A stretch of DNA of 64,000 nucleotides from Haloferula rosea (GTDB lineage Bacteria; Verrucomicrobiota; Verrucomicrobiia; Verrucomicrobiales; Akkermansiaceae), in assembly GCF_016595525.1 (NCBI RefSeq), contig NZ_JAENII010000011.1:1-64000 (forward strand), read 5' to 3'. The notes beneath the pieces are model-generated. The model was not told the DNA's origin, searched no databases, and saw only the letters and a program-made list of their open reading frames with translations. This document shows positions 3,274-61,794 of this stretch, piece by piece (position 1 is the first letter of the stretch; each line of letters starts with the position of its first letter). The translations under genes and the position numbers were made by a program.

Positions 3274-3276
3274 GGC

Positions 3277-4169: not shown

Positions 4170-4238
4170 CCGGCGCCAATTTCACCCCCATCCTTGCATG
4201 TGAAAACCGAAATCTCACAAACTCCCCCCGCAGCCTTG

Positions 4239-5069: not shown

Positions 5070-5080
5070 TTCCACCCACC

Positions 5081-5308: not shown

Positions 5309-5315
5309 CCGCGCC

Positions 5316-7990: not shown

Positions 7991-8065
7991 ATCCCGCACG
8001 ACGGGTCGGTGGCCCGACACCCAGACGCATCCATCCGCCCCCGGGTGAAAAACGGACGCCCCTCA

Positions 8066-11000: not shown

Positions 11001-12265
11001 ACGAACTCACTGCCGGGATGGCGGTCCATGATGATGTCGAGATACGCATTCAGATCCTTGCGGAACTTCTGAATCCCTTCCACACCGGCGAATGATTCGT
11101 TCATCCCGAAACACATGACCACCCGCTGGCACGGCAGTTGATTGGAAATGTAGCCAAGGTGATCCCCGAACTTCGACGGGCGGATCCGGAAGCCCACCTC
11201 GTCCGCACTGTAGGCGAGCGAGCGGAAGCTGAACGGCTTGCCGCCATTCGCGGCATGGAGCAGCGCCTCAAGCGTCCCGTCTTCCTGCTGACGCTCCACG
11301 AAACTGTTTCCATAGAAGAGGGTCAGGTCATCGGCAGCAGTCCGCACCTCCGGCAGTCCACCGGTCTTCGGCGGAGCTGCCTCTGCCTTCCTGGCCGGCT
11401 TCTTCCTGCCCTCCCTCGCCACAGCTTCCTTCGTATTGAGCGTGCGGACCGGCGTGTCGGCCTCTGGCACGGGTTGCCCCGCCGCCCAGAACACCCCGTT
11501 CACCAGCACCCGCATCGACTGGGGCACGTCGAAATCACCCAAGTGACCCAGCGAAGTGGTGAACACCCGGCCACCCCACGCATTCTTCCAGGTCCACGCC
11601 ACCACGTCCGTCATCTCCGCCTTCAGATCGTGCGTGCCGAAGGCGTTCGTCCGCTTGCCCGTTTTGCCTCTCCCCGTGCCCATCAGCAAGGGCTCGGTGC
11701 CCGGCTGCAGCTTCGTGAGGTAGAGCGTGCCCGGTGACTCCCACTCGCCGGAAACCCCCGTCAGGATCGGGTGCTTCTCCGCACCCTTCGCCAGTGCGAT
11801 CTCGGTCTTGCCACTCAGATGAATGAGATAGGGCGTCCCCAACACATTGCGACCGAATCCATGGTTCAGCTCCGCCTGGGCATGGCCCTTCGGATAGTTG
11901 AAACCATGCGTCGTGGTTCTCAGGCCGACCACCGGCTTGCCCGACTGCACGAACTCGGTGATGTGACCCAATTGATCGTCATCCAGCTTCAGGAAGCGAA
12001 TGAAGAACACGCCAACATCCGCCGTCTTGAGCGCCTCCAGCCCCGGAAGCCCCCGCTTGTCCTTCTCTGGATCCCACGCTGGATTGACCACCGTCGTCCG
12101 GAAGCCCAGACGCTCCAACTCGGCGGCGAAGCCGGGCATCGACTTCTGAGGCGTGTAATGATGGGTGCCGACAACGATGACCGCATGGGGCTTCTTCCCA
12201 GCCGCTGCAGGAAGCACTGAAATCAACGAAGCGAAGAGAAGGAAATACCGAAAAATGGGGTTCAC
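8066..12265 (-). CDS. Giant exported ThuA / SGNH / PVC-type dehydrogenase / cupredoxin fusion
   Basis: This 1399-residue protein starts with a signal peptide (about 1-22). In order follow a ThuA-like class I amidotransferase-fold domain (about 25-265), an SGNH-hydrolase-like domain (about 305-515), a PVC-type membrane-bound dehydrogenase beta-propeller (about 600-980), a HEAT-like helical stretch (about 985-1130), and a C-terminal azurin/auracyanin-like cupredoxin. The SGNH part has FYGNS, FGMNES and NGMHLN blocks, so the usual GDS and DxxH Asp residues are Asn. The cupredoxin shows plausible type 1 copper ligands His1315, Cys1383, His1388 and Met1392. Cupredoxin replaces the c-type heme domain often fused to these propellers, suggesting that electrons from a sugar oxidation pass to copper. 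Substrate is unknown; carbohydrate is likely. Confidence 0.88.
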   Translation of the reverse strand: MNPIFRYFLLFASLISVLPAAAGKKPHAVIVVGTHHYTPQKSMPGFAAELERLGFRTTVVNPAWDPEKDKRGLPGLEALKTADVGVFFIRFLKLDDDQLGHITEFVQSGKPVVGLRTTTHGFNYPKGHAQAELNHGFGRNVLGTPYLIHLSGKTEIALAKGAEKHPILTGVSGEWESPGTLYLTKLQPGTEPLLMGTGRGKTGKRTNAFGTHDLKAEMTDVVAWTWKNAWGGRVFTTSLGHLGDFDVPQSMRVLVNGVFWAAGQPVPEADTPVRTLNTKEAVAREGRKKPARKAEAAPPKTGGLPEVRTAADDLTLFYGNSFVERQQEDGTLEALLHAANGGKPFSFRSLAYSADEVGFRIRPSKFGDHLGYISNQLPCQRVVMCFGMNESFAGVEGIQKFRKDLNAYLDIIMDRHPGSEFVLVSPTAVEAVDFGQFPDPAARNADIELYTNAMQEEAAKRDVKFIDLFTPSKKLYAESDAPLTSNGMHLNEAGNRAVARVFAGELGSRKKVDAVSMESAGFESLRKLVARKAYEVAMAYHPANGIHYYGVRGRDFEYHTEIPHHLKLANRIDEAIWKQAANLEAVVPLPELPTAIAKPPAKQPRKGLGKIQSSKEDLAGFEVADGYEVNLFASSEDFPELINPLQINFDSKGRLWVVCFESYPVPVPGTLSNDKVLVFEDTDGDGKADKRTVFADHLKLPDGFVFYKDGIIVSVARQFLWLRDTDGDGVADVREEILRGADDTDTHHGGYLERTPQGQLIINEALFHRGRFETPNGVVRTKDASVLFYDLDSQKLSIERQTTHPNPWKISFTEWGESFQMFGGGQIIDCDFYNVATPSGTSALPSMGMPFRDDKGCTLEVVSSPHFPQEWQGGMVTGHLLAKNAVLFTPLKLEGGTWVAADKSINLFSSANKVFRPTDLGFGLDGALYVSDFYYPIIGHAQHSIRDANRDYQNGRIWRVTRKGAPLATPPTIDGADLKSLFGLLSHPQIRVQELAREELERRPDAEVLAHARTLVSDGMKDGKLGLELLWLFERCKDFSQPGLLRALMDSDELPVQRAAARSIRWWAPSLGEEAQTMASRLLKSDDDRTKIAVISAASHLHALAPFWTELIDGAEAPPGTPLDRVIKLAQLHGRQPLRPEFPILTVASDTLLTGWIQNKKEKGGSIYVKSDEAKDLVLNYAGDPNLNITFNGVPVRQSRGNTHAKSGQLNLSFTKGLNLIRTSSSSAGSRRPVVAKLSLADQTGKKPKGIHFAKNPAEHQKWAKAYDEEFATVTDKHIYLKTIPAALEFNVKSFTVKAGKTYDFIFDNVDHMLHNVVITKPGQEAAVGALADAMASQADAMEKHYIPESDLILFATPQVPYGEKVTMKFTTPEKPGKYPFICTFPGHWRLMKGVMIVE

Positions 12266-12354
12266 GGAGGCCCTCTACGCGACCCCACCCACCCATTCTT
12301 TCCCACCAAGGGGCCCACTCCCCTCGTCTCCCCCACCCGCTGGAGGCAAAACCC

Positions 12355-13476
12355 CTAGCCACCCGCCGCCGCAGCGATCTCGCAGAGCACTTCAGCCCCC
12401 TCCCGTAGCTTGTCATCCGGCACCGTGTAGCAGATGCGGAAATGGGTGTCCTGCTCGCTGAAGACCGCACCGGGAATGACCAGCACGTTCCGCGCAATCG
12501 CCTTCTCAACGAACTCCGTGCCCGTCATCCCTGCCGGCGCCTTGGCCCACAGGTAGAAGGCACCATCGGGCGGACCGATCTCGAAATGCTCCGAGAGGAT
12601 CCCAACCATCAGGTCACGCTTCTTCTCGTAGTCCTCGATGTATGGATCCAGCTCGACCTGCGGGCAGGCCAGCGCCGCAAACTGCGCCATCGCCGGAGCA
12701 CACACGAAGCTGTACTGCTGGACCTTCGTCATCGCCTGGATGATGTCCGCCGGACCGCAGGCGTAGCCAAGCCGCCACCCGGTCATCCCATACGCCTTCG
12801 AATGCCCCGCCAGCACCAGCGTGTCTTCATGGACCTCAGCCATGGAAACCATTTCCACATAGGCGAAGCGTCGGTAAATCTCATCGCTCACCACCAACAA
12901 TCCCCGCTCCCGACATACCGAGGCAATCCCCTCGAGTTCCGCCCGGGAAAGAATCCGCCCTGTCGGATTCGCCGGCGAGTTCAGCAGAAGCAACTTCGTC
13001 TTCGATGTGATCAGCGAGTCCAGCCGCTCCGGATCGATGCCGAAATTCGTGTCGTACGTATCGAGATACACCGGCACCCCGCCGAACAGGCGAACCAAGT
13101 GCTTGTACATCACGAAATACGGATCCGGGATGATCACTTCATCGCCATCCTCAACCAACGCCATCAAAGCAAGAAAGAGCCCACCACTCACCCCGGAGGT
13201 CACCAGGAACTCCTGCTCGCTCCAGTCACGCCCGGTGAATTCCTTCTCCTCGGCCATGAGCTGGGTCCGCAACTCCGCCACACCCTGGGTTGGCGTATAG
13301 GTATTCTTGCCCGCATCGATCGCGTCATGAGCCGCCTGCTTGACGACATCCGGCACATCGAAATCCGGTTGCCCGATCGACAGATTGATCGGGTCCTTCA
13401 ATTGCTTGGCCAGGTCGAAAACCTTGCGGATCCCGGAGGCATCGATCTGGTGGGTGCGCGCAGCGAGTCGTGACAT
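12355..13476 (-). CDS. Class I/II PLP-dependent aminotransferase (aspartate aminotransferase-like)
   Basis: The 373-residue protein is a normal-length fold-type I aminotransferase. PLP contacts are visible: Asn170 in NSPANPTG, Asp198 and Tyr201 in SDEIYRRF, the Schiff-base lysine Lys227 in GHSKAYGMTGWR, and Arg235. An N-terminal SIGQPDFDVP motif is typical of the aspartate/aromatic aminotransferase 1-gamma subgroup. It likely interconverts amino and 2-oxo acids in the cytoplasm. The gene stands alone between the dehydrogenase fusion and a minus-strand operon, with about 90-120 bases on each side, so the neighbours do not refine the substrate. Confidence 0.9.
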   Translation of the reverse strand: MSRLAARTHQIDASGIRKVFDLAKQLKDPINLSIGQPDFDVPDVVKQAAHDAIDAGKNTYTPTQGVAELRTQLMAEEKEFTGRDWSEQEFLVTSGVSGGLFLALMALVEDGDEVIIPDPYFVMYKHLVRLFGGVPVYLDTYDTNFGIDPERLDSLITSKTKLLLLNSPANPTGRILSRAELEGIASVCRERGLLVVSDEIYRRFAYVEMVSMAEVHEDTLVLAGHSKAYGMTGWRLGYACGPADIIQAMTKVQQYSFVCAPAMAQFAALACPQVELDPYIEDYEKKRDLMVGILSEHFEIGPPDGAFYLWAKAPAGMTGTEFVEKAIARNVLVIPGAVFSEQDTHFRICYTVPDDKLREGAEVLCEIAAAAGG

Positions 13477-47288: not shown

Positions 47289-50200
47289 TCACTCGACCAC
47301 GCTCACCCGATAGAACCGACGATCATCCCCGGCACCTCCAACATGGGTGAGTGTCGTCAAGCTTCCCGTACCCGGTCCTGTCGCCACCGTCGACCAAGAC
47401 CCCGCGGTCATCGTCGTACTGGTCTGCAGCTGATAGGTGAGACCGTCCACCGACGAGAACGAGACCACCACATCTCCCCCCATCACCTTCGCCTCCTTCG
47501 CACGGAAGACCGAAGTCGAATCCAGAGGGTCGGTAAGGGCGATCGACTCGTCGAAGTTCGACTGACCATCCCCATCTTCATCTCCACCGTCCGACAGGAA
47601 AATGACCGAGCCGGTTGACTCCACAGGATCCCCTGCAATCCCCGCCACACTCGTCGCCGTGACCCGGGCCGTGTACGACATGCCGGTCGTGCCCGTGAAC
47701 TCGAACAAGTTCGAACCATCCGTGACGTTGCCACTCGCGATCACTTGGTTCGACGTGTCGAGAACCTCGACGAAGTAGGATGCCACCCGGTCATCTGGAT
47801 CAACCGGGTCGGACCAGTTGAAGGTCGCGGTGGAACCCAGGGTCCACGCCGAACTTGATGCCACCGGACTTGCCGGAGGTGTGACATCGAAAACCTTGAG
47901 GAACAGTCCTTCAAACGGATCGCTCCCCCAGCCGCCCGGCGAAGCATCAGAGCTCCCCGTCGTGGGGACACGTGCCAGGGACACGAAAAATCCACCACTC
48001 TGCAATTCCGCTCCGGTGTAGCCACCACCCGGCCACAACCATGCATCCCGCCGCCCCGACATACCCGCCGCAGGATTCTCATAAGCCGCCAGATTCCGGA
48101 CATTGTAGTTCCGAGCAGACTTCAACCCCAACTCGCCGGCCAAGCCCGATGGAATCACGAAGGTATCCCACTGGACGTTGTCGCGATCCAGATTGGAAAA
48201 CGCCAACACCACGTCCGCTTCCGCGGGGGAAGCTCCCGGCTGTTCATACTTCGCCACTGCGTGGATCTGACTGTTGTTTTCATCCCCATCCAGGAACCAG
48301 CGGTTGGATGACCGCAGCGCCTCACTCTCCTGACGAGCCGTCGCCATCCCCGAGTAAACCTTGAAGAGCTGATCGTTGCCGTAGTCCGTATCGTTCCAGA
48401 TCGGCATCATCGAGTTGTATCGCTTGAAGTGCGGGATCAGCTTCCCGAAATTCGTCTCATACTCGTCGTAGCCCGTCGTCCGGCTGATCCCCAGCTCCTG
48501 GCCCGGGAAGATCATGGGAACCCCGGCGAGCGTGGAAGAAACCCCGAACCGGACAACCGCCTGCCAGGGATCCTCATAGTTCTCCTCATCATGCGAAGTC
48601 GTATTCGCAAGAACGAGCCCCTGCCCGTATGCCGCCCTGCGACCTTCGAAGATGTTCCGGTAGTCGTACTTCGTCGTCGCACTCTTGAGCGGGAAAACGA
48701 TGTTCTCGTTGAGGATATCGAAATGGCGATTGCTCCGGTAAGTCACCGCTCCTCCATCAAGCGATTCACTCATCATCACGAAATTCCACTTCTTCGATCG
48801 CGCCACATTGATGATGTATTCCCAGCACTGCGGCGGAAGCCCTTGACCGAAATCACAGCGCAATCCGTCGATCCCCTTGGCGTCCCATTCATACCGCTCC
48901 TCGATGGTCAGACCCGCCTCGGTCTCGCTGTTTCGGTTCTCACCCGCCGGCCGGGTTTCTTCCAACCAGTGAACGGCATACTCGGCGAAGTATTTCCAAA
49001 CCCAGCGGGTGATGTTCTGGGCATTCCCCCCCTTGATGAAATCCGCATTGGTCCAGTCGGTATCCGTCGGATCAAACCAATCCCCCTCGCTCGTGTAGCT
49101 CGAACGCTCCGGCTCGCTGTCGAACTCAACCAGCGCATCATACCGTCCGAAGAAGACATCCTTCACGTCGTTCCACTTGCCGAAGTCGAACCGGTCCGGC
49201 CCCGGCGCAATCGAACCCGCGTCAAATGCCCGGTCTCCGTAGTTGCCATTCCTGGAAAAGAACCGTGCATCCCTGTCGCGGATCTCGTCGTATGCACCCC
49301 AAGTGCTCCCATCGGGCTCGAGCAGATCCACTCCGACCTGAGCCAGTTCCACGTCAAACGATGTGTGGTTGAAGGGAGCATCCAGCATGATACCCACATC
49401 CTTCGTATCAGCCGCCGTGACGAAATTCTGCCACGCCGTCATCGCCAGTGCCCGGTTTGCTGGATTCCCCGTGTCCGCAGGGTTGAGCGGGTCACCCGTG
49501 AAATCCTTGGTGAAGATCGGATTCACCTCGAAGAAATTCTTCACCGCATACGGACTCCCCGGATCATAAAGGGCCGATCCACTGCCGTAGCCACCCACCG
49601 GCTCACGGCCGTCGTAGCCATTCGGATGAATCGGCTGGAACCACAGCCAGTTGGCACCCAGGGCCTTCAGGTAGTCCAGATCCCATCGATTGCTCCCATT
49701 GTGGGGAGCACCAGGAGCGTTATGCATGTCCTCGATGGTTGATCTCGTTGCGAAGGTGTTCCCGCTTGCCTCGATGTTGAGCACATTGATTTCGTAAAGT
49801 ACGATATCCCTCGCATCCCGGGGAGACACGGTGATGGCATGATCACGCCGATTGGCAGCCCCATTCGTGTAGTAGCGCCACTGCGAATCTCCGGCCACTT
49901 TCCAGCGTGCCGTCAGCCGATACGCCCCGGTCTTCGAAGCATCCAGATTCAGCGTGTAGACACCTGAACCGGCTGATGCCATCGGCCAGGCCCTGTAATA
50001 GTGACCGTCGTCGCCCGCAGCAAGCGAGTCACCATCGATTCCACTGATCCCATCGGGGTAACCATCGCCATCACCATCGATATCCGCCCGGTCCCGACGA
50101 TTGAGATTCGTGAACACCTCGGCCTCGACCACATTCGGCTCTCCAGGCTGGAATACGATCGCGAGCGGAACCGATTCCCCCACCACCTCATCGATGAAGA

Positions 50201-51164
50201 GCTTGGTCGTGGTGTAATTCGCGTTGAGACCATTCACGGTCAGGGATGGCTCTCCGAGCACCCCGTTCTGATAGACGAAGGTTTCGTTGTCGGTCCCCGC
50301 CGTATGGTCGGCAAACTTCTCTTCGTTGGTTTCGGAATTCCATAGCCCGATCTTGTACTTCACCTCACCACCCAGTGGCAGTCCTGCAAGCACTCCCTCA
50401 AGCGTGCCGCGCCAGAACGCCGCATTGCCATTTCCCGAGTTGTCCTGATCCACCCCATCAAAGGTCATCGCCACCGCCGTGCCCGATCCCATGGCAACCC
50501 CGAAGGCACCCTCCGGCTCCGAGCCGTCCGTCGTATAGTAAACCGCTCCATTGGTGGCCCACAAGCTCGACGGATCGTTCGACGGACCGATGTAGCCTGT
50601 CTTCACCCGAACCTGGATGTCGTCGTCCGCCACCACCCGGTTGTTGGCGTGAAAGATCCAGCCCGGCCGGTTCCGGATCGAAAAGGGAGCCGCTTGCGCA
50701 TCCGCTTCCACCGTCGACAACGACGTATTCCCCTGCAAGTCACCACCGAAGATGTAGGTGGTCTCCGGATTGCTTCCGGTCGTCCCATCGAAATCCACAC
50801 GGATGTAGTATTCCACCACATCCGTGGGCGCCGCCAAGTCGAAGGGCAGGGAGGCCTGCCAATACTGATTGCCTCCGGCCGCATCGGATGAGAAGCCGAG
50901 CGACTCGCTCAACCAGGCACCCGGCGATCCTCCTCGTGGCGTGAAGCGGTAGAACACCGAACCTCCCGTCTGGTTTCCATTCACCCCACCCGCTTTGGCG
51001 AATCCCTGATAGATGATCGTATTCCCGGCCAGCGGCTCATAGGCAGGGTCACGCATCGTGACACCTCCGATCTCCGGTTGTTGGAAGGCTGGCTCATGCC
51101 AGACGACGCCCGGTGCGCCGAACAATGGCAGGAGAAGAAAACAATAAAACAGGTGGAATTTCAT
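47289..51164 (-). CDS. Large secreted GH13 alpha-amylase-type glycosidase
   Basis: The 1291-residue protein has a signal peptide (about 1-17) and beta-sandwich modules to about 450. A GH13 TIM-barrel holds all four consensus regions: DAPFNHT with Asp595, GLRCDF with the nucleophile Asp771, MSESLDG with the acid/base Glu800, and TSHDEE with Asp859. Fn3-like modules follow, then a DEDGDGQSNFDESIALTDP calcium loop and the recurrent tail (YQLQTSTTMTAGSW, RFYRVSVVE). It should cleave alpha-1,4-glucans outside the cell. The start at 51164 gives the signal peptide and overlaps the stop of the upstream giant amylase (ATGA), so the two are translationally coupled. Confidence 0.9.
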   Translation of the reverse strand: MKFHLFYCFLLLPLFGAPGVVWHEPAFQQPEIGGVTMRDPAYEPLAGNTIIYQGFAKAGGVNGNQTGGSVFYRFTPRGGSPGAWLSESLGFSSDAAGGNQYWQASLPFDLAAPTDVVEYYIRVDFDGTTGSNPETTYIFGGDLQGNTSLSTVEADAQAAPFSIRNRPGWIFHANNRVVADDDIQVRVKTGYIGPSNDPSSLWATNGAVYYTTDGSEPEGAFGVAMGSGTAVAMTFDGVDQDNSGNGNAAFWRGTLEGVLAGLPLGGEVKYKIGLWNSETNEEKFADHTAGTDNETFVYQNGVLGEPSLTVNGLNANYTTTKLFIDEVVGESVPLAIVFQPGEPNVVEAEVFTNLNRRDRADIDGDGDGYPDGISGIDGDSLAAGDDGHYYRAWPMASAGSGVYTLNLDASKTGAYRLTARWKVAGDSQWRYYTNGAANRRDHAITVSPRDARDIVLYEINVLNIEASGNTFATRSTIEDMHNAPGAPHNGSNRWDLDYLKALGANWLWFQPIHPNGYDGREPVGGYGSGSALYDPGSPYAVKNFFEVNPIFTKDFTGDPLNPADTGNPANRALAMTAWQNFVTAADTKDVGIMLDAPFNHTSFDVELAQVGVDLLEPDGSTWGAYDEIRDRDARFFSRNGNYGDRAFDAGSIAPGPDRFDFGKWNDVKDVFFGRYDALVEFDSEPERSSYTSEGDWFDPTDTDWTNADFIKGGNAQNITRWVWKYFAEYAVHWLEETRPAGENRNSETEAGLTIEERYEWDAKGIDGLRCDFGQGLPPQCWEYIINVARSKKWNFVMMSESLDGGAVTYRSNRHFDILNENIVFPLKSATTKYDYRNIFEGRRAAYGQGLVLANTTSHDEENYEDPWQAVVRFGVSSTLAGVPMIFPGQELGISRTTGYDEYETNFGKLIPHFKRYNSMMPIWNDTDYGNDQLFKVYSGMATARQESEALRSSNRWFLDGDENNSQIHAVAKYEQPGASPAEADVVLAFSNLDRDNVQWDTFVIPSGLAGELGLKSARNYNVRNLAAYENPAAGMSGRRDAWLWPGGGYTGAELQSGGFFVSLARVPTTGSSDASPGGWGSDPFEGLFLKVFDVTPPASPVASSSAWTLGSTATFNWSDPVDPDDRVASYFVEVLDTSNQVIASGNVTDGSNLFEFTGTTGMSYTARVTATSVAGIAGDPVESTGSVIFLSDGGDEDGDGQSNFDESIALTDPLDSTSVFRAKEAKVMGGDVVVSFSSVDGLTYQLQTSTTMTAGSWSTVATGPGTGSLTTLTHVGGAGDDRRFYRVSVVE

Positions 51165-54100
51165 GGGGCCGATAGGGTCATGCGGTAGAAGCGGGCCCCA
51201 ACAGCAGCAGGCAGGTCGTCGATCACCCATAGATCCGGGCCTCCCGCTCCCACGGTGGATCGAGGAAGTCCGTGATCATCCCAGGACTCGAGGTCATCGG
51301 ATACCTCGAGTTGATAGATCCGATCCGGCAGCGTTGGGAATGAGAGTTCGGGGGAGCCCCCATTGAGTGAGATCGTCAGCACGGGGAAATCGCCGGCATC
51401 CGCGACCTGGGGATCAAGCCCGACCAGCCACTCGTCCAGGTTACTGATACCATCGCCATCCGGATCTCCTGCAGCACCATGGACACCGGTCGGATCCGAA
51501 TCGTCGAGCCCGTTCGAAGCTTCCCAATCCGCAGGCAACCCATCTCCATCGCCATCGAGGACCTCCACCTCGAGGGACAAGGACAGGCTGAAGGTTTGAT
51601 CCTGACTCTCCACTTCCACTTGCTGGACCTGCGCTTGGTTCCTCATCGCCAACGTATCGAACAAGCCCTCATCATCCATCGCCAGACTCTGCCAGGTGGC
51701 ATTGGCATCCAGACCGACCACGGAACGGGTCAGCAGGGTCGGTGTCGTGTTCGACACCTCCACCCCACTGGCAACCGGTGCGATCGACAGACCTGACTGA
51801 CCACGCACCAGCAGGCTGTCGAGGTCGGGGCTGATGCCAAAACGCACGAACAGTTTGTTGACTCCACCACTCAGGGAATAATCAGCCAGCAACTCGTCGG
51901 CCCCGTTGGCCAGAGTCACCACCTTGGTGATCGCTCCGTCACCGGATGTGAAGGTCCATCCCTGCGTGGTCGGCGTGACCCCATACAGGTCATTCACATA
52001 GCCCGTCGTTCCTCCACCACTACCATCAGCAAACCAGTCCTTGAACGCGGAAGTCCTCCTCGCAAGCACCTCTCCCCCGGAAAGATTCCCATCACCCTCA
52101 CGCTCGTCTTCATAGGCAGGTTGCGACAGCGGGTTGCCGATGACCTGGACCACTTCTCCATTGGCCGCCAGCGACCAAGCCCCGACACAACGTCCTCCAA
52201 GCGCTTCAAATACCGCCATCACCCGGTCGTTGCGGAGCACGAACTCATCCTCACCATCAAAGTCGACGTCCATGGCCTCGGTCTCGGCCAGCGCCGGAGG
52301 AGCCATCGCCCAGTCTGCGACTGCCGAATACATCCCCGCCATCCTTGACTGGGCTTGGGAGCGTTTGGCGAAACCCGCAAGTTCGTCGTAAGTGACATCC
52401 GGATAGATGAAGGCTCCCGTCGAGTAGGTCCTCAGGTCGCTATTGTCCTCCGCATGCCATCCTGCAAGGAAAGTCGATGCGTGGTAGGTCCCGCGCGCCA
52501 CCCGCCCCAAGCGGGTATCACCCAACCCGGAAACCGCATCCCATGAAGCCTTCGCCACCCCGGATCCCGTCCCACCGAAATCCTGCACTCCGTAAAAGGC
52601 GTCACCCACCGGGTTGATCGATACTCCGGGCCTCACCTCGAACACCTTGTCGCGAAGGCTCTCCTCCTGACTGGATCCAAACCACCAGAAGTCGTAGTTC
52701 CCCTCGCTCGCATGATCGAGCCACAGCGGCCCCAGTTTCCGACCAAAGGAGGTCGTCCCGCGGTCGATCGAAGCAAACACATCACCCGTCCCGTCCGGAG
52801 GAAGCGAGAGATCCACCTCGCCCGACGCCACTTGGTCCGGCCCCACCACCTCGATCCACGGCCGGCTGGCCAACCAGGCCAGATTCCGATCGTAAGCTGT
52901 CGCCTGATCCGGATTACGGAAGTCGGAAAGATCACTGTAGAAGACCAGCAACTGGTGCTGCTCCCCACTGCGCGCCTTTCTCGAAACCAGCTGTCGCAGG
53001 TTCACATTCAAACCCTGATCCGTGTTCTGGAATCGGAAACCCGAAGCCTGATCGTTGATCACGATCGTATTCAGACCGTTGATCCGATTGATCCGGTAAC
53101 CGTCGTCGAGCAGGGCCGAGGTTCTCCCGAACCGATCCAGGATATGGCGGAACTGGTCCGCGAACACATGCGTGTATCCGAGGCCCTCCACTTTGCTCAG
53201 CACATCCTCGTCGATGATCCGCTCAGGAATCCAGAAGACCCGGTCGGAGGGCATTACACCATAGATCGAACTCAGCGTGTGGTTGGCAAAGGACACATTG
53301 TCCGCGATCCAGCCCGGGCTGAAGTAGGACAGCGGTGAGTCGGAATACGTGGAAGCAACCAGATCGATCGTTCCATCCTGGGCCATCGCACCAAGCCGGG
53401 CGTTGAACGCAGGTCCATCGCGCCACGGCTTCGCCGCAGCGGGATCGACCGATGCCCATTGAAGCGCCGAAGCAAGAGTTCCCGTCAGATGCAGACCCAA
53501 CTTCGCGCCATACGCGTCATGGGCATCGAGAAGTCGATAGTAGCCTCCGGCCACTCCGTCCTCAATCTCACCCAAGTCCTCGGCATCACTGATCCGATCC
53601 TGCATCTCGCTGCCCGTCTTCAAGGCCTCGTTTCCATGGACCATCATCATCACCTTCGAACGTTTGCCCCGGTCCGGACCATTGTAGTTGAACCATGAAC
53701 GCAGCTCACTGTTCTGGGAAATGTACCCCTGATCCCGCCAGTAGTCCTCGGCCAGATAGTCGTCATAGATGGTGTCCCGGATGTCCGTCCGCCCGCCGAT
53801 ATCCCCCGCACCCTGCGGGCTGTTCTGGGTTCCGTCCCGAACGGTGAAGACCTGGAAGTTCAGACTCGACGGATCTCCCAGCCAACCGGCATCCGTAAGG
53901 GCATCGCGACTGATGGAAAACTCCACCGCATCCAGATCGCTGTTGAAATGGGCTTTTCTGAATCCGTCCGGTGCGTTCTGGTCGCGTCGCACCACACCCT
54001 TGGAGGTCAGATCCTCGTTCACGCCGATCGAGTTGTTGGCCGGATTGAGATCGACGTAAACCGCACCTTGGTTTGACTGATAGACAGCCACCACCGCCTC

Positions 54101-57100
54101 CCACCGCATCAGGGTGCCGGTGTCCACCTCATCAGGAAGCGAGTATTCCCCGATCGCCGTGTTCCCTGTATCGACGGCCACATAGAAATCCAGATTCCCC
54201 TCTTCCGCAAAGGGACGAAGGTCGTGGAGATCCACACGGAAATAGAATTCTCCCGTGCCGCCCACGGACACATCCCCACCGTCCCGCGCATAGAAGGCGA
54301 CCAAGTCCCGGGAACTGTCGAATCCATCATAACCGAGATAGGTATCCCCACCCTGGTGGCCGGTGCCATCCCCTTCAAAGGCATCGAGAACCACCAAGTC
54401 ATCCACGGTCCAATCGGTGAACTCCTGGCGGTTCGAAACCGCCCCTCGAACGATCGAATTCTCCTCCGACACCGGGCCGATCACGATCGCCTCACCCGGA
54501 ACCAGCACCACGCTGTTGTCGACCGTCGGATCCGTCCCGGCAAGAAGCTCCTGCACGTTGGTCAATCCATCCTCATCCGGATCACCTGCCGCACCATTGT
54601 TCTCATTGGGGATGCTTCCGTCATAACTGGTCACGCCATCATCCAGCGGATTCAGTCCGAACCTCCGCTCGAACCCATCCGGCAAGCCGTCACCGTCGGT
54701 ATCCCCCTTGAGAGGATTTGTCTCGGTCCAGACCTCACCGCTGTCCCAGCTACGGTTCAGGTTCGTGTCACCCGTGATGGTTCCGCTGAAGTCAGTGTCC
54801 TCACCGAATCCATCCGACAAGCCATCGTCATCGGTATCAGAGTCGTTCGGCGAAGTCTCCATCCACACCTCACCCGGATCGATCTTCGCATTCGGCCAGT
54901 TCCGCCCCAGCGTGGGAGAATCTCCCGTGCCGATCGCGGCCCCGTCTCCATCAATCCAACCATTGGCGTTGGCATCCTCCACACCATCGAGCAGGCCGTC
55001 CCCGTCGGTATCAGGATTACCCGGATCCGTTAGGGAGCCGTAGAGTCGCTTCGCTCGATCTCCTCCTTCGCTCGCACTGTTTACTCCGGGGACCGAACCG
55101 AGGTTGTCCAAGGTGTTGTAGAAGGGAGGGTCCAGGTCACCCACAAAGTTGGGCAAGCCATCCTGATTGGTGTCCGTCAGCGTATTCGTATCTCCGGAGG
55201 CGGTCCGCCAACCGACCTCAAGCCCGTCGGGCAGGCCGTCGCCATCACTATCAGGCATGAGCGGATCCGACCGCCCGTAAGCCTCCCAAACGTGGACCTC
55301 TCCATTCGTCCATTGCTCCGGGTTCGGCTTGTAACGCGGATCCCCCGCTGGAAAGCCATTCGGCAGGGGAAGCGGTGTGCCTTCATCGAAATCGGCCAGA
55401 CCGTCGTCATCATCATCGGTATCGTTGGGGTCCGCAGCCACCAACTGACGCCGGATCACCGTGGCATTTCGCCGATCCACCGCACTCCCACCAGACGAGA
55501 GCGCCGTCGCAAGAAGCCGGAAACTCCCCGGTTGGTTGATCGTCCAGATGAAATCCCAGAACAAGGTCGAGCCTGACACCTCGGGCTGAATGCCGGGCTC
55601 CACAGGATCGGCATCGACGGGTGTCAGGACTCCGGATCCAAGCTCGAACTCCAGTGAAACGGACTCCGCCGTGTCGTCGGTCGAAACCCGCACGGTGAAA
55701 TCGAGGGAATCCGCCCCCGGACCATCCGGCAATACCGTCTCGACCAATTGACCGTCACTGTCGAATTCCTGAGGCTGCAGGATGGTCACCCGTGGAGCGG
55801 AACTCGGTGCTGCCTCGACCAAGCGGGTCGCCAAAAGATCGGAGAGGGGATCTGGCCGATCATGAAGAATCTCAATCCGATGGAGGAATCCATCGATGCC
55901 GTTGAACAGATTCGGCAACTGGAAAGCGAGCGCGTGATAGGTCGGCGTTTCGTTATAGTTGATGGAAAGCGCAACCGGATCCAGCACCACCGAACTGCCC
56001 GGCCAGTCATCATTTCCCCCGTAACGCACGAGGAACCGGCTCTTCAATGATGCCTCGTCCAAGCCGTCCGCAAGACTCTTGGAAAAATACACCTTGAGCT
56101 CGTAGTTTTCGTCGATCGCCAGCCCATCCGACGGAGGAAACGCCACGAACATCCGAAGATCAGGCCCGGCCGTCCCCACCGTTCGGGTCAGGGTGGTGAA
56201 ATGACCGTCCTCGTCGCTCAGTGCATTGTCATCGGACGAGCTCAATTCCTTCAACCGCACCTCGATTGTCGCTCCGCCGGTCGATGGGATGTTGACATAG
56301 TTGAACCGGAACTCGCGGATGTAGTCGGCATTGCCCGGGGAGATCGACGCACTGGCGGTCACCTCGGTTGCCATGACCCACTCGCCATTGCCATTGTCGA
56401 CTCCCGTCGCCAGATCGTCGTTGCTCGCATCGCCATCGGTGATGCGGAACCAAACTTCCTGGGTCGACTTGTCCGCGCGGACCACCACCCCATACTCACT
56501 ACCACCCACCGTATCGCCGTTGTTCGTCGGGAAAACGATCTCACCCTGTGGCTTCACCGCATCGTAGTAGAATGTTTGGACGAAGGTGTTGTAGAGCGAT
56601 GCCTTGCCAACCCGATTGAGGAAGGCTCGCCCCCTCAGCACGTGAAATCCCTCTTCGAGCCCGGTGTTTGTCACGCCATAGTCATTGTGAGGCGCATAAG
56701 TGATCGACGTTCCATCGAAGCCCTCCACCTTGAACGTGGTGAGCATCGATTTCTTTTTATCCACCGAGGCCTGACCGGAGGGATAGACACTGGAGGCGCC
56801 TTCCTTGAAGATCCCGATCTTGTAACGGAGCTCCACACCATTGGCTGGCTGGGGAAGAGTGGCGGTCATCCACCAGTCATTGCCCGACTCATCGTGGGAG
56901 TAATTCATTTCCACCACCTGTGTGGACCCAAGCCCCGCCCCCCCGGCACCCTCAGGATTCGTTCCATCCACGGTGTAGTAGCAGAACATCCGGAACCCGC
57001 CGCCCACCCCATTGGGCTTCGCCCACAGTGAGATCGTGCTCCCTTCCTCGACATACTGCAACGGTGCTCCCTCCACCGGCCAACCACCACCGGGGACACC

Positions 57101-59434
57101 ACCGACAACACCCGCAGGGTCGTGATAGAGGAATGACGCACGGTCCCCTCCGTCCGTGGAGAAATCATTGGCGCCAACCGGCCCGTCGACGGTCGTCACA
57201 CTGCCCGAACCGACCTCCTTGATGTAGGTCTCCGCACCCGCCGAACCAATTTGGCTCCGACTCGTATCCACTGCAGCGAACTTCTCCGCATGCATCCTCT
57301 GCACGAAGGTCGGCTGCTCATAACCGAGGAAGGTGTCCGTACTTACAGCCGGCGGGTTATCCCTCAACAACGCGTCCGTGATTCCCACCGGAACCGTTCC
57401 GTTCAAGTCCACACCACCATCCAACTTAAGGAGGATGTTCTCCGCCGAACCATCGGCCCGGACCACAAAGTCCATGTCGGTCGCACTCGTCACCCGCGGA
57501 ACCGTCATCGTGTAGGCATAGTCCGTCGGGTCGGCATCCGGCAGACCATAGGGATTGAAGGCAGGATCACCATCGGGCCCATCTCGACGAAGGACCTCCA
57601 TCGTTCCAGCCTCCACACCATTCTGATAGATGGTCAGCGGGCTCCCTCCCGCCGCCTGCCAGGCATCCGATGGCTCAGGCGTCCTCGGAGCAAAAATGAA
57701 ATAGCTCCCGGGATCCACGATCACCGACCCCAGATTCGAAGCATACACGTAGAAACCCTGCTGACTCCCGAATCCCCTGGCATACTGGTAGAGATACTCG
57801 TCGCCCGTATTGGGATCATTCTCGCTACCCGTCCCCCCTACGGACCGGAACGACGTCGACAAGGGACGGGATTGCCCCGCCGCATAGTTGTCGTTCAGCA
57901 TCATCAACATGGTGACACCGTCGGAGTCGTTCATCGCCCCATTCTCCCGCTTGTCCATCCGCTCATAAGCCACGAAGTCGCCGTCGCTCCACCGGCCCAC
58001 CTGATATCCACGGACGAAGTCGCGATGCACCTTGAGCAGGTTCGGGATCCTGCCGTCACCCCACTGGCCGAGGAACGAAGTATTCGAATGACGAGGGAAG
58101 GCACCTCCGCTCTCTCCCAGCGTTTCGGCATGGTAATTTCCGTCCGTATAGACCAACCCCAGACCTTCGCGCGTGAAGTAAAAGGCATGCTGCAACTCAC
58201 GCCGTGCAGCGAAATCATTGTCGTGGCTCTGGGCGTGCATCACGGCCACCGAAGCAGGGAACCCACCGAATCCCGCCTGATCATATCCATTCAAACCCGA
58301 CGAAGGATTTCCCAGCCGGTTGTTGAAATTCGAGCGCAGATCGTTGTCAATCAAGCGCATCCCCGCATCGATGTATGAGCCGTAGGCCGGGGGTTGGCCC
58401 AAATGCTCACCGAACAGCATCGCGTCATCCCGACCCTGCTCGGTATTGAACACGGAATCACGGTGGTTGTTCCAGTCGGAGAAGCCCCGGGTCAGATTGA
58501 ACTGAAGCTGGATCTGGCCACTATATCCATAGTTGGACGAGTCCTTGTCGACTCCGAAGGTTGCCCCGTAGAACTCGGCCGGCGTGTGTTTCACCGCATC
58601 CAGGCGGAAGCCGTCGGCCTTCGTCACATCAATCTGCCAACGCGCAGCCCGATGGAGGAAGTCCTCCACATATTCGGAGTAGAACGACGCATTCTCCGCA
58701 ATCGTCTGTGGCGTGATCCCGTTCCCAGCACCAAAGCCCACGTAGTTGCCCTCGCCGCGGGAATGTTTTTGCCCGGGACCGCTTGGGATGTAGCAATAAT
58801 ACTCGGGGTTGTCGGGTTGCCGGACGAATTCGAACTTGGGAATCGTATCCCCCTCGTAAGATCCGTGGTTGTAGTTCAAGGTTCCCGGTTCCGTCGCGAT
58901 ATCGATCAAGTCCGACAACCCGAGGTTCTGAACCTGCCAGGCATCATTCCAGTCACGTGTGTTGTCCCATTTGCGATAAAATCCGTCCTCCGTTCGACGA
59001 AGGTGGAAGTCTTCCGGGAGAAACCCGGGGTAGACGTCGATCGGCGTGAACGCGTTGTAGCCCGGCACGTCGAACGCATTGTGGTTCATCACATTGTCGA
59101 AGTACACCCGGATCCCGAATCGATGCGCCACACGAACCATCTCAAGCAGCTCCGCCTCAGTGCCGTAACGCGTCCGCACACTCCCACGCTGATCCTTGGA
59201 TCCTAGATCGAATCGATCCCAGCAGTCGTAGCCGACCGACAGGCCACCTGACCCCTTCGTCGGCGGCGGCAGCCACAACGAATCGTAGCCGGCCTCCGCC
59301 AGCTCGGGCATCTTTGAAGTCAGCTCCGCCCAACTGATGTTGAAATACTGCAGCATCGCCTCCCCACGGAGTTCACTTCCGACCAAGGACGCAATGCCTG
59401 CCATCAGGCCAAGCCATGTCTTCTTCCAGTTCAT
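51161..59434 (-). CDS. Giant secreted two-clan amylase: GH13 plus TSP3 repeats plus GH57/GH119-like module
   Basis: The 2757-residue protein has a signal peptide (about 1-25). A GH13 barrel follows with DNVMNH (113-118), GFRLDAVKH (nucleophile Asp279), FGEH (acid/base Glu343) and SHDND (404-407). Several starch-binding-like and Fn3-like modules run to about 1330. Thrombospondin type 3 calcium repeats, each DxDxDGLxDGxE, occupy about 1340-1630, and a DOMON-like beta module lies near 1640-1870. A second glycosidase-like domain from about 1890 shows HLTGTL, DGTIDLVASTYSDSPLSYF and WIPER (Glu about 2071, candidate nucleophile), which fit GH57/GH119. The end has DGDGLPADWE, DPDGDGISNLDEW and the recurrent tail (RFYRMTLSAP). 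It is first in an operon with the GH13 gene. Confidence 0.85.
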   Translation of the reverse strand: MNWKKTWLGLMAGIASLVGSELRGEAMLQYFNISWAELTSKMPELAEAGYDSLWLPPPTKGSGGLSVGYDCWDRFDLGSKDQRGSVRTRYGTEAELLEMVRVAHRFGIRVYFDNVMNHNAFDVPGYNAFTPIDVYPGFLPEDFHLRRTEDGFYRKWDNTRDWNDAWQVQNLGLSDLIDIATEPGTLNYNHGSYEGDTIPKFEFVRQPDNPEYYCYIPSGPGQKHSRGEGNYVGFGAGNGITPQTIAENASFYSEYVEDFLHRAARWQIDVTKADGFRLDAVKHTPAEFYGATFGVDKDSSNYGYSGQIQLQFNLTRGFSDWNNHRDSVFNTEQGRDDAMLFGEHLGQPPAYGSYIDAGMRLIDNDLRSNFNNRLGNPSSGLNGYDQAGFGGFPASVAVMHAQSHDNDFAARRELQHAFYFTREGLGLVYTDGNYHAETLGESGGAFPRHSNTSFLGQWGDGRIPNLLKVHRDFVRGYQVGRWSDGDFVAYERMDKRENGAMNDSDGVTMLMMLNDNYAAGQSRPLSTSFRSVGGTGSENDPNTGDEYLYQYARGFGSQQGFYVYASNLGSVIVDPGSYFIFAPRTPEPSDAWQAAGGSPLTIYQNGVEAGTMEVLRRDGPDGDPAFNPYGLPDADPTDYAYTMTVPRVTSATDMDFVVRADGSAENILLKLDGGVDLNGTVPVGITDALLRDNPPAVSTDTFLGYEQPTFVQRMHAEKFAAVDTSRSQIGSAGAETYIKEVGSGSVTTVDGPVGANDFSTDGGDRASFLYHDPAGVVGGVPGGGWPVEGAPLQYVEEGSTISLWAKPNGVGGGFRMFCYYTVDGTNPEGAGGAGLGSTQVVEMNYSHDESGNDWWMTATLPQPANGVELRYKIGIFKEGASSVYPSGQASVDKKKSMLTTFKVEGFDGTSITYAPHNDYGVTNTGLEEGFHVLRGRAFLNRVGKASLYNTFVQTFYYDAVKPQGEIVFPTNNGDTVGGSEYGVVVRADKSTQEVWFRITDGDASNDDLATGVDNGNGEWVMATEVTASASISPGNADYIREFRFNYVNIPSTGGATIEVRLKELSSSDDNALSDEDGHFTTLTRTVGTAGPDLRMFVAFPPSDGLAIDENYELKVYFSKSLADGLDEASLKSRFLVRYGGNDDWPGSSVVLDPVALSINYNETPTYHALAFQLPNLFNGIDGFLHRIEILHDRPDPLSDLLATRLVEAAPSSAPRVTILQPQEFDSDGQLVETVLPDGPGADSLDFTVRVSTDDTAESVSLEFELGSGVLTPVDADPVEPGIQPEVSGSTLFWDFIWTINQPGSFRLLATALSSGGSAVDRRNATVIRRQLVAADPNDTDDDDDGLADFDEGTPLPLPNGFPAGDPRYKPNPEQWTNGEVHVWEAYGRSDPLMPDSDGDGLPDGLEVGWRTASGDTNTLTDTNQDGLPNFVGDLDPPFYNTLDNLGSVPGVNSASEGGDRAKRLYGSLTDPGNPDTDGDGLLDGVEDANANGWIDGDGAAIGTGDSPTLGRNWPNAKIDPGEVWMETSPNDSDTDDDGLSDGFGEDTDFSGTITGDTNLNRSWDSGEVWTETNPLKGDTDGDGLPDGFERRFGLNPLDDGVTSYDGSIPNENNGAAGDPDEDGLTNVQELLAGTDPTVDNSVVLVPGEAIVIGPVSEENSIVRGAVSNRQEFTDWTVDDLVVLDAFEGDGTGHQGGDTYLGYDGFDSSRDLVAFYARDGGDVSVGGTGEFYFRVDLHDLRPFAEEGNLDFYVAVDTGNTAIGEYSLPDEVDTGTLMRWEAVVAVYQSNQGAVYVDLNPANNSIGVNEDLTSKGVVRRDQNAPDGFRKAHFNSDLDAVEFSISRDALTDAGWLGDPSSLNFQVFTVRDGTQNSPQGAGDIGGRTDIRDTIYDDYLAEDYWRDQGYISQNSELRSWFNYNGPDRGKRSKVMMMVHGNEALKTGSEMQDRISDAEDLGEIEDGVAGGYYRLLDAHDAYGAKLGLHLTGTLASALQWASVDPAAAKPWRDGPAFNARLGAMAQDGTIDLVASTYSDSPLSYFSPGWIADNVSFANHTLSSIYGVMPSDRVFWIPERIIDEDVLSKVEGLGYTHVFADQFRHILDRFGRTSALLDDGYRINRINGLNTIVINDQASGFRFQNTDQGLNVNLRQLVSRKARSGEQHQLLVFYSDLSDFRNPDQATAYDRNLAWLASRPWIEVVGPDQVASGEVDLSLPPDGTGDVFASIDRGTTSFGRKLGPLWLDHASEGNYDFWWFGSSQEESLRDKVFEVRPGVSINPVGDAFYGVQDFGGTGSGVAKASWDAVSGLGDTRLGRVARGTYHASTFLAGWHAEDNSDLRTYSTGAFIYPDVTYDELAGFAKRSQAQSRMAGMYSAVADWAMAPPALAETEAMDVDFDGEDEFVLRNDRVMAVFEALGGRCVGAWSLAANGEVVQVIGNPLSQPAYEDEREGDGNLSGGEVLARRTSAFKDWFADGSGGGTTGYVNDLYGVTPTTQGWTFTSGDGAITKVVTLANGADELLADYSLSGGVNKLFVRFGISPDLDSLLVRGQSGLSIAPVASGVEVSNTTPTLLTRSVVGLDANATWQSLAMDDEGLFDTLAMRNQAQVQQVEVESQDQTFSLSLSLEVEVLDGDGDGLPADWEASNGLDDSDPTGVHGAAGDPDGDGISNLDEWLVGLDPQVADAGDFPVLTISLNGGSPELSFPTLPDRIYQLEVSDDLESWDDHGLPRSTVGAGGPDLWVIDDLPAAVGARFYRMTLSAP

Positions 59435-59610: not shown

Positions 59611-60099
59611 TCAGACATCCGCCGACTCGAATCGCCCCTGCTCACGATTCTTCCTGACCTGGCCGGCTTCAAACACCGTGCCATTCATGGCGACAAACAC
59701 TCCCTCTCCTTTCGACTGCACCGCTCCCAGCGCCAAGCCCAGATTGAAGATGGCATCCGTGACGCGAAAACGTGCGGGCGCCAGCGCCCCGGTGAGCACA
59801 ATGGTCTTGCCCGGAATCCCGGTCAGGAATTCGGCCGTCTCCGCCATCGTATCCGTGCCATGGGTGATCAGAATGCGAGCCTCCGGCGATCTCTCACACG
59901 CTTCGCGAATTCGCCTCCGATCTCCCTCATTGATCTCCAGACTGTCCTTCCGGAAAAGGGACTCCAATTCATACTCCATCGCGACCGCTGCCTCGCGAAA
60001 CACATGCGGCACGGTCGGTTCACCCACCTCATAGTCGGAAGTCGCATCGAAGTAGACCTTGTCGATCGTTCCTCCCGTCGTGATCACGCGGACCTTCAT
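59611..60099 (-). CDS. Short asparaginase-family protein (N-terminal domain only)
   Basis: The 162-residue protein matches the N-terminal half of L-asparaginases. It has the first Thr motif TTGGTIDK (residues 7-14), the HGTDTMAETA motif with the second Thr, Asp and the following Lys region, and KTIVLTGALAPAR. Full-length enzymes are about 330 residues, so the C-terminal domain is missing. Single-domain members like this are common enough that truncation by mutation is not required. It may hydrolyse an amide, or be non-catalytic. Its ATG overlaps the stop of the upstream glycosylase gene (ATGA), so the two are cotranscribed. Confidence 0.8.
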   Translation of the reverse strand: MKVRVITTGGTIDKVYFDATSDYEVGEPTVPHVFREAAVAMEYELESLFRKDSLEINEGDRRRIREACERSPEARILITHGTDTMAETAEFLTGIPGKTIVLTGALAPARFRVTDAIFNLGLALGAVQSKGEGVFVAMNGTVFEAGQVRKNREQGRFESADV

Positions 60100-60950
60100 G
60101 ACTTCGGCAGGAAATAAGAGCGCTGCTTGTCACTGATCGGCAGTCCCAAGCGCTCCATCACCTCCAGCATGTCTTCCCAAATCATCCTCTTGTCCTTCAA
60201 TCCAGCTGAGCCGTGCAGAAGGTAGGCAGGATGATAGGTCACCCTCGCCGGCGTCCCTTCGAAGTCCTGCCAACTCGCGCGCATGCGACCAACCGAACCA
60301 CTCAAGCCCAATAGCCCTTCCGCCGCCGTAGCACCCAGCGCGACAATCACCTTGGGCCGAACCACCTTCACCTCCTCGCGGATGAACGGAATGCAGGCGG
60401 CCATTTCTTCCGCCGTGGGTTTCCGGTTGTTGGTGGTCTGCTTCGGCATCGCTGGCCGGAACTTGACGATATTCGAAATGTAGGTCTGCTCCCTGGCCAA
60501 TCCCATGGCCTTCAGGATGTCGTTCAGCTTCTGACCCGCCGGACCGACGAATGGCTCCTGTTCACGCTCCTCATGGTAGCCGGGCGCCTCGCCCACCAGC
60601 ATCAGATCCGCCTCCGGGTTGCCCGTCGAAAACACCATCGTCTCCCGCAAGCTCCCCAAAGCCTTGGCTGGCGCCCAGTCCGCAGCCATCCGGCGCAACG
60701 ACTCAATCTTCTCGGCCGCCGAGTTCCCCGTCGCGGCCACCTCTCTCACCACCTGTGGCTGCTCAGGCTCGGTCGTCTCCACCACCGCCGGCATCACCTG
60801 CTTCGGAGCACCACCCGAGCGCGCCTCTCTCGTCTGCCGGTGCCAATCGCGCAGGATTGCCTTGGCACTTTCATCCAAATGCACATCCGCCACACCTCGC
60901 GCTTGCTCAGCACGCAGGGCATCCACCAGCACATCAATCGGACGACTCAC
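60096..60950 (-). CDS. Family-4-like uracil-DNA glycosylase lacking the Fe-S cysteines
   Basis: The 284-residue protein has an N-terminal 90-residue disordered or helical extension and then a UDG fold of the family 4 type: VGEAPG (119-124), EPFVGPAGQKLND, TYISNIVKFRP, NRKPTAEE, KVIVALG and YHPAYLL. Family 4 enzymes have four cysteines for a [4Fe-4S] cluster. Here only one cysteine exists in the whole protein (Cys186), the usual CxxC is absent and NIVKCRP reads NIVKFRP. It should remove uracil from DNA without a cluster. I chose the GTG at 60950 because it begins the region that looks like protein; the open frame upstream does not. Confidence 0.82.
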   Translation of the reverse strand: MSRPIDVLVDALRAEQARGVADVHLDESAKAILRDWHRQTREARSGGAPKQVMPAVVETTEPEQPQVVREVAATGNSAAEKIESLRRMAADWAPAKALGSLRETMVFSTGNPEADLMLVGEAPGYHEEREQEPFVGPAGQKLNDILKAMGLAREQTYISNIVKFRPAMPKQTTNNRKPTAEEMAACIPFIREEVKVVRPKVIVALGATAAEGLLGLSGSVGRMRASWQDFEGTPARVTYHPAYLLHGSAGLKDKRMIWEDMLEVMERLGLPISDKQRSYFLPKS

Positions 60951-61155
60951 GGGCGACAGGCTAGTCAGGCCGACGACGACTGGCAATCGTTCGAAACGAG
61001 GAAGTGGATGAATCCACCCAGCCTCCCACCCATTCCACCTTTCAGGCCAAGCATGCCACCTCCCTGGGCACCAGCCCCGTCCACTCTGTTCCGCTTTGAG
61101 TTGAATTTTCTGACGAATAGGTGCGTATTGTCCTGACTCCAAGCCCGCCGACGCC

Positions 61156-61794
61156 ATGATCCGAATCCTTTCTGCCAGCCTTGTTCTGCTCGCCAGCGCC
61201 GCGACCGCGGACGTCGCGATCGATGTGGAAGCCTTCGGCGAGAGCCTCGGTGGATGGAAAAAGGAAGTCGTCGACTACGAGCTGTCCGGATCCCAGTACC
61301 GCACCCACAAGCCGGAGATCACCCCGTCTCCGGATGGAGGTATCTTCCTCTCCATCCGCATCGATCACCGACGTGGCTGGCTCGCCAGCGACGATCACGC
61401 CGTTCTTGAAGTCACCTTCAATGCCGACGGATCCGTCAGCAGCGCCCAATCCACCCTGGCCATCCAAGGGCGGACCATTGCCAGCGACCTGATCAGGACA
61501 TCTGCCGAGGCTGGCGCCAGCCTGAAAGGTGCCCAAGGAGCCGTACGCATCGGCTCAAACCTTGTCGCGGACCTTTCCAGCAAGCTCTTGCGCGAAAAGA
61601 TTGTCGAGGCGGGACGCGTCTCCTTTCCGTCCGCCGTCCGGCACAACTACAACCTGCTCTACAAAGCAGTTCGCATGCTCCCAGCCGCTCCGACCGAAAC
61701 CGGTGAAGCCGAACCCGAAGAGCCCGACCCGGCCAAACCCGAGCCAGCCGCCCCAGCCGTCGAAATCAAACCCTACGGCAAGGTTCCCAAATAA
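61156..61794 (+). CDS. Exported protein of unknown function
   Basis: I do not recognise this 212-residue protein. It has a signal peptide (MIRILSASLVLLASAATADV, about 1-18), a mixed alpha/beta body to about 175 and a Pro/Glu/Ala-rich C-terminal tail. No catalytic motif or lipobox is present. It is divergent from the uracil-DNA glycosylase gene over about 205 bases and convergent with the XerD-type gene, so it is probably its own transcription unit. Confidence 0.65.
   Translation: MIRILSASLVLLASAATADVAIDVEAFGESLGGWKKEVVDYELSGSQYRTHKPEITPSPDGGIFLSIRIDHRRGWLASDDHAVLEVTFNADGSVSSAQSTLAIQGRTIASDLIRTSAEAGASLKGAQGAVRIGSNLVADLSSKLLREKIVEAGRVSFPSAVRHNYNLLYKAVRMLPAAPTETGEAEPEEPDPAKPEPAAPAVEIKPYGKVPK

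Follow-up and report, generated by a model that had tools for sequence, protein, structure and literature searches.

The usual view of families GH13 and GH57 is that they solve the same chemistry in alternative ways. Among GH13 enzymes, the alpha-amylases of PDB entries 1mwo and 1hvx carry four GH13 regions and a catalytic triad. Described GH57 enzymes include the 4-alpha-glucanotransferase of Thermococcus litoralis (1k1w/1k1x) and the amylopullulanase of Aquifex aeolicus (9kyq and related entries), which have in common a barrel and the helices that follow it. According to excerpts of PMC6037648 (Martinovicova and Janecek 2018), the GH57 nucleophile is the fourth residue of CSR3, on strand 4, and the proton donor is the third residue of CSR4, on strand 7; the same excerpts describe GH57 'like' proteins in which one catalytic residue, or both, is lacking. 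A known alpha-amylase plus pullulanase protein combines two starch-active catalytic domains in a single chain, and an excerpt of PMC5010890 has GH57 standing alone in Sandaracinus.

The locus described here lies in the window, the whole stretch of 64,000 nucleotides that was analysed. An uninterrupted open reading frame on the minus strand (51161-59434, ATG to TGA) encodes a protein of 2757 aa in which a GH13 and a GH57 catalytic domain are 1,440 residues apart. Its GH13 part shares the four regions and the triad with 1mwo and 1hvx but has about 2,270 more residues fused to it. The GH57 module has the barrel and following helices of the T. litoralis and A. aeolicus enzymes, and the likeness to 1k1x extends over its C-terminal beta-sandwich; unlike in those enzymes, the module sits in the C-terminal third of a very long protein, behind a glucodextranase-C-like domain, and its donor Asp is not conserved within the fusion family. 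Two starch-active domains share one chain as in the alpha-amylase plus pullulanase protein, except that here they are GH13 and GH57. Judged by the features tested, each catalytic domain belongs to a known family; what is new is the combination. The fusion was not described in open-literature titles or abstract starts, a search that had CAZy and subscription papers outside its scope, so that the layout may be listed there, nor was it described in excerpts of PMC6037648, PMC5010890, PMC11046441, PMC7410926 and PMC2721979. The parts of the protein and its neighbours are as follows.

59357..59434, minus strand: putative signal peptide, aa 1-26 (ending ...GEA ahead of MLQY), placed by eye from a basic start and hydrophobic core
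57995..59347, minus strand: GH13 alpha-amylase catalytic domain, aa 30-480, with Asp279, Glu343 and Asp405 (PF00128, NCBIfam, PDB 1mwo)
55280..57994, minus strand: beta-sandwich/Ig-like modules, aa 481-1385, about 900 residues (AlphaFold model m8b3fd333b8d5, pLDDT 83)
54365..55279, minus strand: TSP3-like calcium-repeat stretch, aa 1386-1690 (Dx[DN]xDG motifs; TSP3_bac below cut-off)
53675..54364, minus strand: beta-sandwich resembling the C-terminal part of glucodextranase, aa 1691-1920 (structural match 1ug9)
52331..53674, minus strand: GH57 catalytic module, aa 1921-2368, with His1933 (CSR1), Glu2071 (CSR3 nucleophile, predicted), Asp2168 (CSR4 donor, predicted) and His2327 (CSR5, by eye) (PF03065, VIA, hhalign)
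51605..52291, minus strand: C-terminal beta-sandwich of the 4-alpha-glucanotransferase / galactose mutarotase type, aa 2382-2610 (1k1x, 3mwx)
51164..51604, minus strand: two further Dx[DN]xDG motifs (2627, 2657) and a short C-terminal domain, aa 2611-2757 (motif search)
47289..51164, minus strand: second GH13-like gene; counted from the likely start, its product has 1291 aa and a hydrophobic N-terminus (PF00128 under cut-off, GH13-like motifs)
59611-60099: asparaginase-type gene, upstream neighbour, no evident starch link
60096-61157: uracil-DNA-glycosylase-type gene, upstream neighbour, no evident starch link

Our main reading, to which we give a probability of about 0.6, is that the fusion protein is a secreted multi-domain degrader of alpha-glucan (starch or glycogen) with two catalytic barrels, the GH13 barrel cutting and the GH57 barrel acting on maltooligosaccharides, and with a co-translated second GH13-like enzyme alongside. 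The N-terminal GH13 amylase would cut the alpha-glucan internally. The GH57 module, which has the barrel, helices and beta-sandwich of GH57 4-alpha-glucanotransferase, may act on or rearrange maltooligosaccharides; Glu2071 would serve as the nucleophile and Asp2168 as the acid/base. The amylase and the glucanotransferase-like module would thus act on the same polymer, presumably in cooperation, and the second GH13-like enzyme would work beside them. Secretion is suggested by the putative signal peptide; a hydrophobic N-terminus preceding a conserved MLQYFN is also present in relatives of the fusion protein.

The GH13 half was matched by PF00128 above the Pfam cut-off (2.9e-9), and its best NCBIfam match was an alpha-amylase model (1.6e-36, under the equivalog cut-off of that model). 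The closest solved sequence in a phmmer search was the alpha-amylase 1mwo (3.4e-23), with a best stretch of only aa 33-129; both 1mwo and 1hvx rank among the best PDB sequence matches of the fusion protein. A predicted (beta/alpha)8 barrel for this part is supported by the 1mwo sequence match. The GH13 regions are DNVMNH (I, 113-118), FRLDAVKH (II, 276-283, including Asp279), the region of Glu343 (III) and HDN (IV, 404-406). Across the family the triad was invariant, with Asp279 in 43/43, Glu343 in 44/44 and Asp405 in 44/44 of the rows that have letters there; the 46 GH13 rows include the window, L060 split in two, and a GH13 ORF that stands separately (L044:12753-14597).

The second domain was matched by the GH57 model PF03065 at 2.9e-6, scoring 27.3 bits where the cut-off is 21.2, and at E 0.01 the same model matched 40 of the 48 family members (best 3.3e-12). 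An AlphaFold model of aa 1691-2610 was built from 48 homologous rows, with a mean pLDDT of 90 and a pTM of 0.88. Its top Foldseek match was the GH57 4-alpha-glucanotransferase 1k1x (2.5e-16), at a low whole-chain TM of 0.31/0.42. VIA-align placed 9kyq, the Aquifex GH57 amylopullulanase, at Z 29.1 (rmsd 3.4, 337 aligned residues, model 233-678) and 1k1x at Z 27.4 across model 233-920, including the C-terminal beta-sandwich. The rmsd of the latter superposition was 9.1, indicating that the domains are placed differently relative to 1k1x. Rows 1-18 of the VIA-align ranking were all GH57 entries (Z 21.2-29.1), the first non-GH57 entry was a deacetylase (Z 18.6), and a further GH57 entry, 4cmr, stood lower (Z 17.5). 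Outside the barrel, 3mwx matched model 692-920 (Z 14.8), and model 5-229, ahead of the barrel, matched residues 785-1020 of glucodextranase 1ug9 (Z 13.9, rmsd 3.2, 181 aligned). Identity to solved GH57 enzymes was 10-15% and a profile search of PDB sequences with the GH57 module gave one match, 7e1y, at E 0.079; the link to solved GH57 enzymes through sequence is weak. The GH57 region is also less conserved than GH13 across relatives. From the two Pfam matches, the fold matches and the presence of both GH57 catalytic residues we conclude that the GH57 module is real and lies in the same chain as GH13, which confirms the central claim of the original prediction. That prediction had called the second domain GH57/GH119-like; Pfam and the fold bear out the GH57 part, the comparison having been made without GH119 references.

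Catalytic residues of the GH57 module were located by comparing a family profile of 56 rows with the canonical GH57 L108, from the window's class, together with L125, using hhalign (-mact 0.01). This single comparison gave 95.6% probability and E 1.2e-8 over 605 columns. CSR1 to CSR4 were aligned overall, with the CSR1 His and CSR2 in register; Glu2071 was paired with the Glu of WLTERV in L108, and Asp2168 with the second Asp in GDDGEKF. Asp2168 (codon GAT, 52931-52933) was thus found as the proton-donor Asp that the original prediction had asked for, and that prediction withstood its own refutation test. The Glu of the canonical CSR4 (DGEKF) is replaced by Ser2170 in the window's protein. In the structural model Asp2168 closes the strand at 473-478, a location that fits a donor on beta7 as given in the excerpts of PMC6037648. 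By position, Glu2071 is the predicted GH57 nucleophile and Asp2168 the predicted proton donor. His2327 was not aligned onto the CSR5 His of L108, so its designation as CSR5 follows placement by eye. The residue positions announced beforehand were correct, namely Asp279, Glu343, HDN at 404-406, DGTIDLVASTYSDSP beginning at aa 2020 and WIPER at 2068-2072.

The spacer that separates the two catalytic domains consists of about 900 residues of beta-sandwich or Ig-like modules, followed by about 300 TSP3-like residues and by the glucodextranase-C-like domain. The whole protein contains 10 Dx[DN]xDG motifs, compared with a mean of 0.48 and a maximum of 4 in 1000 shuffles; aa 1380-1700 contain 6, compared with a mean of 0.25 and a maximum of 3 in 1000 shuffles of that stretch. 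The Pfam model TSP3_bac (PF18884) matched four stretches at 16.8 bits, below its cut-off of 25. The motif enrichment makes the resemblance of aa 1386-1690 to TSP3 repeats clear, although the stretch does not pass the Pfam model, and calcium binding by these repeats would be expected. The stretch may, as originally proposed, form a rod that calcium stiffens and that keeps two active sites apart. The proposal that the two enzymes are joined through calcium repeats holds for these residues and covers only part of the spacer, since the TSP3-like stretch makes up about 300 of its 1,440 residues. The model of aa 481-1385 gave generic Ig-chain matches only (best Z 9.5 at rmsd 23.6), and its structural matches allowed no carbohydrate-binding family to be named for these modules. 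Two further alignments were A5, of 34 rows (L031 and L060 left out of 35 stretches), and A4, also of 34 rows (33 of 40 stretches).

A scan for the GH57 core in a collection of species genomes (84,980 species) recovered at least 52 related loci, a lower bound because the scan works via two short peptide patterns. By their record titles, forty-four are from Verrucomicrobiota, four from Kiritimatiellota or Lentisphaerota and one from Lindowbacteria, and three are labelled 'bacterium' only; L026-L028, L047/L048 and L060/L061 are near-copies. GH13 and GH57 share one ORF at 42 of the 52 loci, and 35 of these ORFs are uncut, at 2620-2977 aa from stop to stop (median 2831). The remaining loci comprise six that lost the 5' end at contig ends, L057 with a frame change, L062 with an in-frame stop, L071 with a different GH13 and L072 with no GH13. 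The 42 include L060, whose GH13 part is interrupted by an in-frame stop. The GH57 module was present in 37 of 387 sampled genomes of the window's phylum and in 9 of 97 genomes of a second set that includes the window's own; the family is therefore patchy but widespread, and the architecture is no isolated case, contrary to the rarity expected in the original prediction. Six full-length co-linear homologues with 50-77% identity were found in genomes of the same order, the organisms partly overlapping those of the 52 loci. The split frames of L057, L060 and L062 might suggest that two adjoining genes were joined by chance through an assembly or gene-calling artefact. We give this practically no credence, as the co-linear homologues and the same order in one ORF at 42 loci, most from different assemblies, already refute it.

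Other large or duplicated arrangements were encountered during these searches. An ORF reported as 8,313 aa in Candidatus Lindowbacteria (L071:1109-21304, MFPR01000006.1) has another type of GH13 (PF00128 3.6e-40), two Pfam GH57 matches (5.5e-10 and 1.3e-15), many fn3/Ig-like repeats and one GH57 module of the window type (29% identity), which hints at more than one origin of the GH13-GH57 combination. Among the PF03065 matches listed for 57 genomes of the class, three lie in frames longer than 2,500 aa (G000, G141 and G258), all of them members of the fusion family. A frame of 26,627 aa in G254 was rejected, as it is created by the 72,000 N of its contig. The window's genome has another GH57 gene (G000:C22:61472-62083, 1077 aa, PF03065 1.6e-11); a further match in the same genome (G000:C22:111154, 762 aa) was under the Pfam cut-off and was set aside, its N-terminus resembling, by eye, that of a GH38 mannosidase. 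In L054 window-type GH57 modules occupy adjoining ORFs (1-3438 and 3788-12433) as tandem copies.

Conservation of the GH57 catalytic residues was followed in alignment A3, whose 48 rows are the window and 47 stretches, with L054 supplying two rows; near-copies (L027, L028 and L047) and loci cut at contig ends (L067, L068 and L070) were left out. Glu2071 and His2327 were present in 48 of 48 modules and His1933 in 41. At position 2168 there were 26 Asp, 10 Asn, 4 Trp, 3 Gly, 2 Ser and one each of Ala, Met and His. With the donor Asp missing from 22 of the 48 modules, two active sites are doubtful for the family as a whole. Outside A3, L067 has Arg and L070 has Asp at this position. Many members of the fusion family therefore resemble the GH57 'like' proteins of the PMC6037648 excerpts in having a substituted catalytic residue, but here the substitution recurs inside a single GH13-GH57 family and spares the nucleophile in every module. 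A genome of the window's own genus, G009 (L016), has Gly, implying that GH57 catalysis is dispensable somewhere close by; L016 and the other loci of sampled genomes, apart from eight short relatives, were outside A3 and the tree.

A quick tree of 56 modules, with its root placed by choice on the short relatives, required at least eight changes of donor state; supported branches force five of these. In 500 shuffles no arrangement was as clustered as the observed donor states, a clustering that near-copies favour. In the window's clade the donor Asp was present in 7 of 7 tree rows. The eight short relatives are unfused (L080-L087, for example L081:2593-6183 and L084:2637-6089) and represent eight of ten places with short frames, G294:C229 and G166:C19 being left out. 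Their frames of 1,103-1,264 aa give no GH13 match and contain the glucodextranase-C-like domain, GH57 and the beta-sandwich, possibly picturing the module prior to fusion. All eight have the donor Asp, in the motif FDDWEA, as do the first-branching rows L071 and L072, both long branches of unsure placement. The simpler reading from these rows is that the donor was lost within the fused family. Separately, the minus strand of L080 carries a GH13-like stretch (33% identity) at about 2223-2468, opposite in strand to the unfused GH57 gene and just upstream of it. The small clade L060-L062 has the most degraded CSR3 and has lost the donor Asp together with the Arg that follows the nucleophile. The fusion genes of L060 and L062 have in-frame stops and are possibly pseudogenes; decay may therefore explain these losses, but not the others.

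These observations bear on whether the GH57 half works at all. GH13 could be the sole working enzyme, with the GH57 half, in the window's protein too, a former enzyme that is kept as an alpha-glucan-holding module and no longer needs its general acid. The 22 modules without donor Asp, in which Glu2071 and His2327 stay and His1933 is mostly kept, would fit such a module, as would the recurrent donor changes next to an unchanged GH13 triad, the Gly of the same-genus relative and the precedent of GH57 'like' proteins without catalytic residues in the PMC6037648 excerpts. However, an unused residue is expected to drift, and the window's clade retains Asp in all seven rows; the GH57 fold is also kept, and glucan binding is itself putative. 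We regard this explanation as unlikely, while still giving it real weight.

A different possibility is that GH57 is active throughout the family and the role of proton donor moved to another acid of CSR4, at 2171 or 2170. Position 2171 is acidic in 44 of 46 window-type modules compared with none of the eight unfused relatives, but this acid does not track the loss of Asp2168, being present in 23 of 24 modules with Asp2168 and in 21 of 22 without it (L071 and L072 not counted). An acid at 2170 occurs in 17 of the 22 modules without Asp2168 and in 4 of the 24 with it, on the same count. The covariation of Asp2168 loss with the 2170 acid (Fisher p 7e-5, 46 rows) is unsupported once kinship is allowed for: five independent pairs on supported branches gave a median sign-test p of 1. 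Moreover, 5 of the 22 (L043, L056, L060, L061 and L062) are without an acid at 2170 as well. We consider a moved donor improbable. Returning to the reading with two catalytic barrels, the GH57 half probably works as an enzyme in part of the lineages, including that of the window, and is acid-less elsewhere. A more tentative proposal, which we hold as plausible at somewhat less than even odds, is that the general acid was removed repeatedly from the GH57 half of one fusion family while nucleophile and fold were kept, so that an enzyme became a module that grips glucan, or else had its acid shifted, on several occasions, with the window's protein among the lineages that retain both active sites.

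Two families regarded as alternatives are combined here in a single chain, which has a patchy distribution over Verrucomicrobiota and a few related phyla. With the GH13 triad constant and the GH57 donor variable, the family forms a natural series for studying the role of a second active site and the passage from enzyme to binding domain. For annotation, a 'GH57' match can be part of a protein some 2,800 aa long.

The second GH13-like gene lies directly downstream of the fusion gene, and the fusion-gene stop and the next start overlap as ATGA (51161-51164), an arrangement that suggests co-translation. Its PF00128 match (0.0036) is under the cut-off, and it has the GH13-like motifs DAPFNH, DGLRCD, SESLDGG and SHDEEN in that order. 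Of 41 related loci where more than 3 kb is available, 23 have a homologue of it downstream of the fusion gene under a distance rule. The homologue was not found in the rest of the 41, including L021 and L023, the two closest relatives of the window, apart from L060, where it is also downstream but starts too early for the distance rule, and L059, where it is upstream. The end of the fusion protein (aa 2611-2757) is similar to the end of the adjoining ORF in L016 and L018. The ATGA overlap was seen again in six relatives (L048, L052, L060, L065, L068 and L070).
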